Shown: one piece after another, positions 51,116 to 54,349 of the stretch | Layout: each line of letters begins with the position of its first letter | How positions within the stretch are numbered: the stretch's first letter is position 1 | Notes under the pieces: generated by a model | Databases searched by the model: none | The model's input: only the letters and a program-made list of their open reading frames with translations | What the model was told of the DNA's origin: nothing | Assembly: GCA_022446795.1 (NCBI GenBank) | Contig: JAKVBX010000009.1 | Coordinates: forward strand, 1 to 56,663 | Origin: Phycisphaerales bacterium | GTDB lineage: Bacteria; Planctomycetota; Phycisphaerae; Phycisphaerales; SM1A02 | Length of the DNA stretch: 56,663 nucleotides | Direction: 5' to 3' | Program-made: the position numbers and the translations under genes

Positions 51116-51865
51116 ATGCCACGCCACCTCGTTGCACTGATCGCAATCCTGCTCCTGGCCGCCGGCTGCGAGACGACTCCCACGGCCACCACCTCCCTGT
51201 CGAATGCCACCGCCCGCTACCAGGCCGGCGATCTCGATGCCGCACGATCCATCGCCACGCCGCTTGTCCGGCACGACGGCACCGAGTCCGACGAGGCCGC
51301 CTGGATCATCGGCCTGTGCGACTACCGGCAGGACCGGATGACCGCGGCCCGTGAGCGTTTCCGATACGTGACGACCGGACCCAACACCTCCCTGGCCGCC
51401 CAGGCCCGGGTCATGCTGGCCCAGATGGAACTGGCCGATGGCGATGCCTCCGCCTGCCTGGCCAGCCTCGCCCGCGCCTGGCCGGACCTGCCCCCGGATC
51501 ATCGCCGACGGACCGCCGAACTGGCCGTTGGTGCCGCACAGTCACTCGACGACACGGCGGCCGTGAACCTCTGGCTCGCGAGAATGCCATCGGCGCCCAG
51601 CCGAACGACACCGGAGATGGCCGCGGCTCGCGATCGCTTCACCCTCCAGGCCGGGGCCTACCGCAACCGATCCGGCGCCGAGAAGGCACGATCCGCATTG
51701 GGGCAACAGACCACCACGCTGGGGCAGGCGACCATCCGCACGCGCACTGACCGCCGTGGCGAGACGCTTTACCTCGTGCAGATCGGCTCATTCTCGACAC
51801 GAGCGGCCGCTGACAGCGCCAAGCAGTTGCTGCCACGAACGAACCTGGTCGTCGTTGCCCGCTAG
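51116..51865 (+). CDS. SPOR-domain lipoprotein
   Basis: 249 residues. Lipoprotein signal (HLVALIAILLLAAGCETT), a helical TPR-like middle (ARYQAGDLDAARSIATPLV..., ARVMLAQMELADGDASACL), and a C-terminal SPOR domain (FTLQAGAYRNRSGAEKARSALG...LYLVQIGSFSTRAAADSAKQLL). SPOR domains bind denuded peptidoglycan at division sites, so it is probably an envelope or septation protein. GGAG is about 9 nt upstream of the chosen ATG; a Met 5 codons earlier is possible. The stop shares CTAG with the convergent aminotransferase (4-nt overlap). Confidence 0.85.
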   Translation: MPRHLVALIAILLLAAGCETTPTATTSLSNATARYQAGDLDAARSIATPLVRHDGTESDEAAWIIGLCDYRQDRMTAARERFRYVTTGPNTSLAAQARVMLAQMELADGDASACLASLARAWPDLPPDHRRRTAELAVGAAQSLDDTAAVNLWLARMPSAPSRTTPEMAAARDRFTLQAGAYRNRSGAEKARSALGQQTTTLGQATIRTRTDRRGETLYLVQIGSFSTRAAADSAKQLLPRTNLVVVAR

Positions 51866-53067
51866 CGGCTGTCGAACGAAAGTCCCACGTCGATGAGACG
51901 CTGGTAATCCTCCGGCCGGTTGTAGATGTGCGCGGACAGCCGCACCCACCACTGCCCCGCCCAGTCATGCACGGCGACATCGAGGCGATGATCCCGTCGC
52001 AGCCAGTCACGCCAGTCTTCCACCTCGTTGAAGGTGGCCTGAAGCGAACCGGGCAACGCGATGGTCCGCATCGAGCAGGCGGCACTGGACTCAGGCACAT
52101 CGAGTGGTTCCACCTGCCAGGCGTCACAGAGCACCCCGGTGGCCCAGGACACCAACTGGCGGTTGTGGGACTGCACGGCCTCCCAACTGAAGTTCGTCCG
52201 GAACCAGTCGATGGCCATGGGTGCCGCGAGGAATGCCGTCGTATCCCGCGTTCCGAGCCAGCGGAATTCCGGCTGGAACCCTTCGCTGTAGTAATGACTG
52301 ATGATGGTCGGGTGAATCGAGGATTGGTGCTCCGGTGAGACATGCAGGAAGGCGGCACCAGTCGGCGCCGACACCCACTTGTGCAGGTTCCCGGTATAGA
52401 AGTCCGCACCGATGGCCTCGACGTCCAGGTCGAACATGCCAGGCGCGTGCGCGCCATCGACCATGACCGGCACCCCACGGGAGCGACACATCCGGACGAT
52501 CTCCTCAACGGGAAACAGCATCGCCGTCGGCGAGCTGACATGGTCAACCATGACGAAGGCGGTGGTGTCGTCGATGGCCTTCGCAAAGGCCTCGACCAGG
52601 CCGGCCTCATCAGGCAACGGCGGATGCAGATCGATCACCCGAAGTTCGGCCCCGGCCCGATTGGCCACGTGCCGAAGCGTCTGGGTGACGGCGTTGTATC
52701 CATGCCCGGTCGTGACTACCGACTGCCCCTTGTCCAGCGACAGCGACCGGGCCACGGCGTTGATCGCGTCGGTAGCGTTGACCACGTTCACCAGGTCACC
52801 GGGATCAGCCCCAACGAAGGAGGCGACCGCGGTCCGGGCCGCCAGGAGCTGCTCCTCTGAATGCAGCCAGATCGAGACGAAGGGATCGCTGTCCAGCGTC
52901 TCCTTGAGACGTTGCTGAGCCTCCGCGACAGCCCGGGGACGGCCCCCGAAGCTCCCATGGTTCAGGAACGTGATCTCCTCGCTGAGCGTCCACGATTCGA
53001 TACCCGACCCGGGCAGTGGCTTGGGGGGACGATCAGCGATCAGTGCGGAAGCGCTCGAGGAGGTCAT
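51862..53067 (-). CDS. class V PLP aminotransferase (isopenicillin-N-epimerase-like)
   Basis: 401 residues. Class V pattern: FLNHGSFGGRPRAV near the N-terminus, VMVDHVSSPTAMLFPVEEI, PVMVDGAHAPG (PLP pyridine Asp region), and NLHKWVSAPTG (Lys that binds PLP). NHG, HKW and VDGAHAPG are characteristic of isopenicillin N epimerase-like and related cysteine-desulfurase-like aminotransferases. The substrate is unknown. Divergent from the lexA region with a 381-nt gap that holds a 35-bp dyad and a structured RNA candidate. Confidence 0.88.
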   Translation of the reverse strand: MTSSSASALIADRPPKPLPGSGIESWTLSEEITFLNHGSFGGRPRAVAEAQQRLKETLDSDPFVSIWLHSEEQLLAARTAVASFVGADPGDLVNVVNATDAINAVARSLSLDKGQSVVTTGHGYNAVTQTLRHVANRAGAELRVIDLHPPLPDEAGLVEAFAKAIDDTTAFVMVDHVSSPTAMLFPVEEIVRMCRSRGVPVMVDGAHAPGMFDLDVEAIGADFYTGNLHKWVSAPTGAAFLHVSPEHQSSIHPTIISHYYSEGFQPEFRWLGTRDTTAFLAAPMAIDWFRTNFSWEAVQSHNRQLVSWATGVLCDAWQVEPLDVPESSAACSMRTIALPGSLQATFNEVEDWRDWLRRDHRLDVAVHDWAGQWWVRLSAHIYNRPEDYQRLIDVGLSFDSR

Positions 53068-53174: not shown

Positions 53175-53209
53175 CGTACGGTTGGTGTTATGCTAACGAA
53201 TACCGAACG
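53175..53209. promoter_or_regulatory. 35-bp interrupted dyad, probable operator upstream of lexA
   Basis: The 35 bp are mirror-symmetric by block: CGTACGGT-N4-GTTA-N3-TAAC-N4-ACCGAACG. The outer arms match at 7 of 8 positions and the inner GTTA/TAAC at 4 of 4. The segment is AT-richer than its surroundings. It lies 108 bp from the aminotransferase start on the other strand and about 28 bp before the RNA candidate. Auto-repression by LexA is plausible because lexA is usually SOS-controlled, but the LexA box of Phycisphaerae is not known to me. Confidence 0.5.
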
Positions 53210-53236
53210 CTCCAGTCGATAGGAAGTTCAAGCCCA

Positions 53237-53396
53237 CGACCGGTTCTGGTCGAGATGTACCCGGCCTGAGGTAACTCAGCCAACCCGGACCACAAGATCT
53301 TGTGGAAAGCCCACAGGATCGGCTCCGGGGAACGCTGAGGGGTCAGGCGGGTCCGACAAGAGGGAAGAGGCGGACCCGCCGACCCCCGATCTCGAC
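53237..53396 (+). ncRNA. candidate structured RNA (multi-helix, upstream of lexA)
   Basis: No known RNA family was recognised. Helices visible: P1 GTCGAGAT/ATCTCGAC (53249-53256 with 53389-53396, 8 bp) closes the whole; P2 CTGAG/CTCAG around a GTAA loop (GNRA type, 53266-53279); P3 CCCGGA/TCCGGG (53284-53289 with 53324-53329) closing on a perfect 16-nt palindrome (53290-53305); P4 of 16 bp with one bulged A (53339-53355 with 53371-53386; 15-nt loop). A further stem CGACC/GGTCG (53237-53252) would exclude P1, a switch-like alternative. The GNRA loop favours the + strand. It could be a stand-alone RNA or a riboswitch-type leader of the downstream ORF and lexA. Confidence 0.55.
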
Positions 53397-53448
53397 AGGC
53401 CGGCTTCACGGGCGAAGGAACCGAGAAACGACGAGGGAGTGATTCACG

Positions 53449-53931
53449 ATGGAACAGCCACTTGTACAACTGGGACCAGGAGGAGACTACCGAACGGCAT
53501 TCGTGATCCAGCAGAACCGTGGGACGGCCCGACTCATTGCCCAGACAGGGCATGATCTCAAGGCAGACCGGCGAGTCTTCGCCCTCCCCACCGCCATCCT
53601 GCGGGCACCCCGGACACTCCTCGATCGCCTCCTGGGCATCGATCGTCCGCTGCCCCCGGCTCACGAGGCCCCGACTCCTCCCTCCCCCTTCGCTCACGCC
53701 CTCCACCACTCCGACGAGGACACCTTCCATGAATCTCACGCCCAAGCAACTTCGCATCGTGCAGTTGATTCGCGAAAGCCGGCTGACGAACGGCTATTCA
53801 CCGACGATGCAGGAGCTGGCAGAAGCCACCGGCGTCAGCAAGGTGACCGCCTTCGAACACGTACAAGCACTCATCAAAAAGGGTGTGCTCGAGCGGGAAG
53901 CACACAAGGCACGCTCTTTGTCAATCGTTGA
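53449..53931 (+). CDS. uncharacterised ORF overlapping lexA in another frame
   Basis: 160 codons with a ribosome site (GGGAG, 10 nt) following the structured RNA. The first ~95 residues have a protein-like composition (AFVIQQNRGTARLIAQTGHDLKADRRVF...LLDRLLGIDR) and GC-rich third positions. The last ~65 codons (from 53729) run inside lexA in another frame, so the true gene may be shorter or the frame not real; an upstream SOS-linked gene would be one interpretation. No known motif. Conservation in relatives would decide. Confidence 0.35.
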   Translation: MEQPLVQLGPGGDYRTAFVIQQNRGTARLIAQTGHDLKADRRVFALPTAILRAPRTLLDRLLGIDRPLPPAHEAPTPPSPFAHALHHSDEDTFHESHAQATSHRAVDSRKPADERLFTDDAGAGRSHRRQQGDRLRTRTSTHQKGCARAGSTQGTLFVNR

Positions 53932-54349
53932 AGACGCTCCGCTTCCCGATGAGGCAGCGCCCCTGCAGTTTCCGTTGGTGGGAAGAATTGCAGCGGGCAT
54001 GCCCATCGAGAAGTGCGCCCAGGAGGACATGCTGGATGTCGAGAACCTGGTCGGCCCCCGACTGGGATCCAACTCCGGGACCTTCGCACTCCGAGTCGAG
54101 GGCGACTCGATGCAGGACGAGGGCATCCTCGATGGCGACTATGTCCTCGTGGAACGACGGAACACGGCCCGCAACGGCGAACGCGTCGTCGCATTGCTGC
54201 CCGATGGCGAAACGACGCTGAAGACCCTGTTCCGGGAAAGCGACGGCCGCATCCGGCTGCAGCCCGCCAACGAAGCCTACGAGCCGATCATCGTCGATGA
54301 CTGCCAGATCCAGGGCGTGGTCACCGCCGTCCTCCGCTCCTATCGGTAA
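53729..54349 (+). CDS. lexA: LexA SOS repressor
   Basis: 206 residues, the usual length. N-terminal winged helix-turn-helix (LTPKQLRIVQLIRESRLTNGYSPTMQELAEATGVSKVTAFEHVQALIKKGVL); then the self-cleavage site Ala89-Gly90 (GRIAAGMP), catalytic Ser 127 (EGDSMQDEGI) and Lys 165 (TTLKTLF). It represses DNA-damage genes until RecA filaments trigger cleavage. The ATG at 53729 is the one matching the conserved N-terminus; longer frames do not. Start upstream sequence shows no strong Shine-Dalgarno. Followed 12 nt later by a two-helix membrane protein. Confidence 0.95.
   Translation: MNLTPKQLRIVQLIRESRLTNGYSPTMQELAEATGVSKVTAFEHVQALIKKGVLEREAHKARSLSIVEDAPLPDEAAPLQFPLVGRIAAGMPIEKCAQEDMLDVENLVGPRLGSNSGTFALRVEGDSMQDEGILDGDYVLVERRNTARNGERVVALLPDGETTLKTLFRESDGRIRLQPANEAYEPIIVDDCQIQGVVTAVLRSYR

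Follow-up and report, generated by a model that had tools for sequence, protein, structure and literature searches.

The lexA locus and its leader

The window, that is, the whole stretch of 56,663 nucleotides that was analysed, carries near its end a lexA gene, a 160-aa open reading frame (ORF) in front of it and, upstream of this ORF, a conserved stretch that we refer to as the lexA leader (Table 1). The leader extends from a promoter-like element up to the ORF start and is adjoined on its other side by a minus-strand ORF, labelled an aminotransferase in the original prediction. The 160-nt segment singled out by that prediction proved to be part of this longer leader, which begins approximately 45 nt further 5', at the promoter-like element; the promoter-proximal start and the overlap of the ORF with lexA were both absent from the earlier description. 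A coding function of the segment was considered and rejected, since genus members differ in the leader by insertions and deletions and the leader comes to an end ahead of the ORF. Upstream of the segment, where the original prediction placed a 35-bp dyad, a search for inverted repeats that covered positions from 53100 onwards gave no long one before 53234.

Table 1 Features of the lexA locus in the window.
Feature	Position	Strand	Remarks
Adjoining ORF	51862-53067	-	next to the leader
lexA leader	from 53194 (TAACGA) to the ORF start at 53449	+	
Promoter-like element GTTATGCTAACGAATACCGAAC	53187-53208	+	putative -10 TAACGA (53194-53199), dyad GTT...CCGAAC; conserved in relatives
Match to covariance model R2	53194-53309	+	E 2.5e-16; the sequences used to build R2 include the window
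Sequence-conserved 5' block	53203-53257	+	CCGAAC 53203-53208, GTCGAT 53215-53220, TTCAAG 53227-53232, N18, CGAG
CGAG of the 5' block	within CTGGTCGAGATG, 53246-53257	+	
Segment of the original prediction	53237-53396		160 nt
5' hairpin	53237-53252		present in the window sequence, as is the GTAA-loop stem
Closing helix GTCGAGAT / ATCTCGAC	53249-53256 / 53389-53396		100% complementary in the window
Conserved hairpin CCAC-AAGATCTT-GTGG	53290-53305	+	loop consensus AA[G/C]AUNU; covariation
Palindrome CCACAAGATCTTGTGG	53290-53305		16 nt; same site as the conserved hairpin
Long helix	53339-53355 / 53371-53387		present in the window
Lower hairpin, loop ACAAGAGGGAAGAGG	53346-53380	+	10-bp core of the 16-bp helix of the original prediction; 6/6 genus members
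Core arms of the lower hairpin	53346-53355 / 53371-53380		10 bp
First ORF after the leader, MEQPLVQLGPGGDY...QGTLFVNR	53449-53931	+	160 aa; 203-nt overlap with lexA, other frame
lexA	53729-54349	+	Pfam PF01726 and PF00717 above their cut-offs

Conservation of the leader upstream of lexA

With positions 53180-53460 as the query, BLASTN returned one match in the genome of origin (at E 0.001) and found the leader upstream of lexA in all five other genomes sampled from the genus (E 2.7e-27 or better). Those relatives of the genus that bear a name (L145-L149) are MAGs assigned to Phycisphaerae or Phycisphaerales. Its place before lexA is the same in 6/6 genus genomes, window included. Related leaders in other genera were recognised by reading further lexA loci of the family, and a sequence-only model built on 17 leaders (R1) had a match with an E-value of at most 0.1 in 49 of 181 genomes from the family. 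The 30 best family matches (E 8.7e-4 or better) all lay upstream of lexA, as judged by coordinates or tblastn, and some weaker ones, e.g., G013:C132, did not. Among 80 named lexA loci, 21 matched at E 1 or better, 18 nearly over the full length and three partially.

A second model (R2), which was built on 31 leaders and includes the hairpin described below, was run at a threshold of E 0.01 or better over 400 whole genomes of the order, blind to the position of lexA. It matched 79 genomes, each of them once, with 37 in the family of the window and 42 across three other families; the remaining 321 gave no match at this threshold. Forty-four of the hits were fetched (all 42 outside the family plus two inside), and lexA was located downstream on the same strand in 43 of them, the exception being a 300-base piece without lexA (L294). 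A phylum-wide draw of 294 genomes yielded five R2 matches, all within the order. Because a scan that is blind to lexA lands before lexA, we consider this strong evidence for a lexA leader: the homologues share one genomic place and one strand upstream of the same gene.

A covarying hairpin with a conserved loop

The 16-nt palindrome highlighted in the original prediction coincides with a hairpin that is backed by comparison, as its stem covaries: around the loop AA[G/C]AUNU we found CCAC/GUGG, CCCC/GGGG, UACCA/UGGUA, GUCCU/AGGAC, GGGCCCAC/GUGGGCCU and other stems. When the hairpin was picked by pairing alone, it fell on the same spot in 58 of 75 leaders (one leader, present as L208 and L254, is counted twice), with a mean z of 1.28 and 67/75 values above zero. 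The alignment used for covariation (A6) was fitted to the structure. For the 43 sequences outside the model, 79.2% of the hairpin cells were paired compared to 69.5% in shuffles, double-change cells numbered 26 compared to 9.5, and the covariation score was 0.268 compared to 0.115 (0/500 shuffles in each case), and slid registers were all lower than the native one; neither the number of pairs showing double changes nor that of pair types showing them exceeded shuffles in this set. The signal was modest in the first 31 leaders at a fixed register (0.157 vs. 0.085 shuffled, 1/500), where two measures were not above shuffles. Homologues with compensatory changes, a check suggested together with the original prediction, hence exist, most clearly in the 43 sequences and less so in the first 31 leaders. 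Two early tests are not relied on, one (103/124 pairs, 0/5000 permutations) because its registers were set by hand and the other (66/66) because its stems were chosen for pairing.

The conserved paired part comprises only 3-6 bp in most leaders, and the stem enclosing the hairpin gave a weak result when native and swapped partners were compared (mean z -0.51 over 31 leaders). Across leaders the distance from the hairpin to a start codon ranges from roughly 30 to 220 nt, the lower value being that of the short leaders. In three leaders that have lost the AA[G/C]AUNU loop (L289, L290, L295), the conserved position is occupied by variant hairpins, GUCCUG/CAGGAC and GCUCUG/CAGAGC.

The 5' block and the promoter-like element

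The core sequence shared by the leaders consists of CCGAAC, CGAT and UCAAG-N18-CGA. The CGA is invariant (31/31 leaders), and T[CG]A[AT]G precedes it by exactly 18 nt in 28/31 leaders and in 34/44 order-level leaders. No covarying pairs and no covarying helix were seen in the 5' block among the 31 leaders. A TAACGT-type -10 together with the GTT...CCGAAC dyad recurs across relatives from the family and the order, and the promoter-like pattern has a single exact match in the genome of the window. Since a sigma-70 consensus scan of the window reported no promoter at this position, we infer the promoter-like element from comparison; transcription would accordingly begin near 53203-53206. A scan of the window found no terminator-like site. 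In genus g18 the lexA promoter shows CCGAACAAAAGTTCGG instead, which we take to resemble a Bacillus-type SOS box, and the LexA operator of the lineage may be readable from the promoter dyad and this g18 element. Two further candidates were discarded because each, when several leaders were judged by eye, fits some genera only, namely a leader peptide starting at the AUG in CGAGAUG and a pairing of the hairpin loop with the CGAGAUG linker.

Folding energy and the predicted helices

The 160-nt segment folds at -83.6 kcal/mol compared to -60.8 +/- 4.2 kcal/mol for shuffled sequences (z -5.45; 0/200 shuffles as good). As the opposite strand also folds well (z -4.24), folding alone cannot fix the strand. 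For the whole leader, the window reached a z value of -8.2 and five relatives from the genus values between -3.4 and -5.8, compared to only +0.3 to -1.8 in 11 leaders from other genera; because the latter are near shuffles, the excess folding energy is a feature of the genus. The lowest-energy fold of the window leaves out the conserved hairpin, whose 3' arm pairs downstream instead (-17.9 kcal/mol vs. -4.7 kcal/mol for the conserved hairpin in a 40-nt piece). Comparable alternative pairings were noticed in some relatives, by eye only, and we therefore do not claim a switch.

The helices named in the original prediction are all present in the window as described, but they are not conserved as the fold that was proposed. 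The longest native duplexes of the closing helix measured 8, 4, 4, 6, 7 and 5 bp in the six genus members, overall no better than swapped partners, which leaves the four nested helices unsupported as one conserved whole. The 5' hairpin that was thought to compete with the closing helix reached a mean z of -0.37 (17/31 below zero); with both elements failing, the suggested two-state switch is not supported. The stem with the GTAA loop sits in a stretch missing from most other genera. The long helix fared better, as its 10-bp core is kept in 6/6 genus members, C-G to U-A changes included (p 0.001-0.015).

The loop of this lower hairpin, GGGAAG, also occurs on unrelated stems in five leaders from two other genera (p 0.004, 0.026, 0.11, 0.18 and 0.22). 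Overall, 11 of the 31 leaders have a GGGAAG hairpin, 12 have GGGAAG without a supported stem and eight have no GGGAAG, so that, judged by the GGGAAG motif, a GGA hairpin loop is not found throughout the leader family. A GGGAAG hairpin considered for the g61 and g53 leaders was unsupported in 12/12.

The first ORF overlaps lexA

The first ORF has no stop before lexA and shares about 200 nt with it, read in a different frame. From 75 leader loci, 69 could be scored (four lacked lexA in the stretch and two the ORF motif); the frame extends 198-232 nt into lexA in 69/69 and has an identical offset in 68/69. In a set of 152 lexA loci, no two of which are identical over the first 330 nt, the overlap frame is open for at least 62 codons in 151 and is closed by codon 76 in all. 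A QxxLF motif lies near the ORF end in 147 of these loci (QG[S/T/A]LF in 117), 130 of which also have a GPGG motif upstream; QxxLF is absent in L172, L179, L186, L194 and L217. Over codons 0-65 of 70 genes, only 13 of the 4622 codons in the overlap frame are stops, each of them at codon 65, compared to 241 in the other off-frame. Codon identity in lexA codons 20-66 was 0.52-0.72, whereas 0.31-0.51 was expected from pooled usage; codons 0-20 were not conserved beyond expectation and those past 67 were at or slightly above it. At the lexA wobble positions on which Q, L and F of the ORF depend, the bases do not vary (C before K, CGC, TCT) in 69/69 genes with K-A-R-S-L, out of 70. The overlap combines an open frame with synonymous constraint, as is characteristic of an overlapping coding gene.

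Judged by these patterns, the first ORF resembles an overlapping gene that has not been described before and whose tail may bind the beta clamp. The consensus beta-clamp motif given in PMC4549789 is Q-L-x-L-F at the C-terminus, to which the Q, the L at position 4 and the F at position 5 of the ORF tail fit, while position 2 is G or S and does not. Because of this departure, clamp binding is put forward as a hypothesis. The window ORF matched no Pfam and no NCBIfam family, and of 28 relatives only four gave a hit, in each case a single weak one (E 0.045-0.071). In three more distant lexA loci (L213, L216, L224), the upstream ORF seems to carry a PL..GPGG motif twice.

A probable cis-acting leader of the lexA operon

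We consider it most probable, at roughly 0.6, that the lexA operon has a cis-acting 5' leader, which would constitute a new RNA family of the order Phycisphaerales and probably acts on translation. The transcript would begin immediately downstream of the -10-like element and would present fixed, sequence-conserved elements over its first ~45 nt, then the short hairpin with its AA[G/C]AUNU loop and, in the genus of the window and two others, a second hairpin with the GGGAAG loop. The single-stranded conserved segments and the loop would most likely be bound by a trans-acting factor, either an RNA-binding protein or the 30S subunit, which would set the translation of the first ORF and, via the 200-nt out-of-frame overlap, the access of ribosomes to the lexA start. 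Translation is favoured over attenuation because there is no terminator-like site; this, the distance from the hairpin to the start codon and the crossing of the lexA start by the ORF are the reasons why we favour control of first-ORF translation with an indirect effect on LexA. Two observations in particular speak against the sequence acting as an mRNA leader, as we suppose it does: the 5' block could work as DNA, given that it does not covary, and leaders from other genera fold little better than shuffles. Further counterpoints are the lowest-energy fold of the window, which omits the conserved hairpin, the modest hairpin signal in the first 31 leaders, the fitting of the alignment to the structure, the weak enclosing stem, the negative sigma-70 scan and the 321 genomes of the order that R2 did not match.

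The possible action of the 5' block as DNA leads to an alternative that we regard as unlikely, in which LexA or another regulator binds this block as double-stranded DNA, across the promoter and the early transcribed region, and only the hairpins act as RNA. The fixed spacing and letters of the block and the dyad surrounding the -10-like element would be accounted for, but a covarying stem with a kept loop is unexplained by DNA binding, and leaders of differing length retain both the 5' block and the hairpin. The near-chance folding of leaders outside the genus, together with the high G+C and the good folding of both strands, would suit a chance folding of GC-rich DNA without function, an idea that order-wide conservation at one locus and covariation contradict and to which we give almost no credence. 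A riboswitch, whose conserved loop and single strands would recognise a small-molecule signal of DNA damage, seems improbable from the sequences: unpaired conserved letters around a covarying stem resemble aptamers in general and the window does contain mutually exclusive pairings, but neither a terminator-like site nor a conserved alternative pairing provides an expression platform, and the paired part is very short in most leaders.

Still less probable is a repression of the operon via the purine-rich loops by CsrA or another protein that binds GGA in a similar way. The CsrA family (PF02599) was matched in 36/37 genomes, and twice in that of the window, and 11/31 leaders offer the GGGAAG loop, which has to be set against the eight that lack GGGAAG and the 12 in which it lies outside a supported hairpin. 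The original prediction left the choice between a leader and a non-coding RNA at an SOS locus; its first option agrees with the constant position and orientation upstream of lexA. A small RNA of its own, whose processing or transcription does not depend on lexA, might draw on the promoter-like element and on the very stable 3' hairpin of the genus, but we think it highly unlikely, since no terminator-like site is present, the hairpin of short leaders lies so close to the ORF start, and the same ORF and lexA always follow where checked.

Relation to known systems and implications

The original view that the segment matches no known family was borne out: of the 4227 models of Rfam 15, none matched the window at its gathering score. 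Sub-threshold matches to the long hairpin or the segment (mir-1228, 24.2 bits; mir-H20, 18.4; Scr3920, 18.0) were far below the gathering scores of 88 or 99 bits, that of mir-1228 being 88. Rfam 15 includes leader and sRNA families which, like the lexA leader, have several hairpins, and none of them matches. Ribosomal-protein leaders are structured and regulate how the operon behind them is translated, and the lexA leader is like them in combining a small conserved hairpin, a conserved loop and conserved single-stranded letters in a 5' UTR without a terminator; unlike them, it precedes an operon that encodes LexA and a putative ORF. LexA autoregulates at SOS boxes, and control of lexA is usually described as transcriptional. 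The overlap of a conserved dyad with the promoter-like element is in line with such autoregulation, whereas the leader hairpin, with its RNA-type covariation, is found beyond the operator on the downstream side. The Rhodopirellula-1 motif is a candidate structured RNA listed for Planctomycetes (PMC2864571); the comparison with it covered text only, and the word lexA is absent from the main text of that source. Our literature search found no lexA leader among the matches listed, which is weak evidence of novelty as few subscription papers were covered.

The position of the leader before lexA suggests an undescribed layer of SOS-response control in many Phycisphaerales, a diverse and mostly uncultured lineage. 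Tentatively, and with less than even confidence, we propose that leader and ORF form an undescribed SOS module, in which the leader controls the gene of a putative beta-clamp-binding protein whose last ~66 codons lie, out of frame, inside the LexA DNA-binding domain. If this is true, ribosomes on the first ORF would cross the lexA start, the leader would balance a replication-clamp effector against the SOS repressor from one mRNA, and leader and overlapping gene would together add a translational layer and possibly a new SOS effector. The clamp-like motif of this gene is kept through lexA wobble positions, and both leader and gene can be tested directly by means of the covariance model and the motif. 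As a minor observation, the two CsrA-family genes in the genome of the window lie at G000:C23:168405-168560 and G000:C1:211056-211223, and two such genes also occur in most of the 37 relatives searched.
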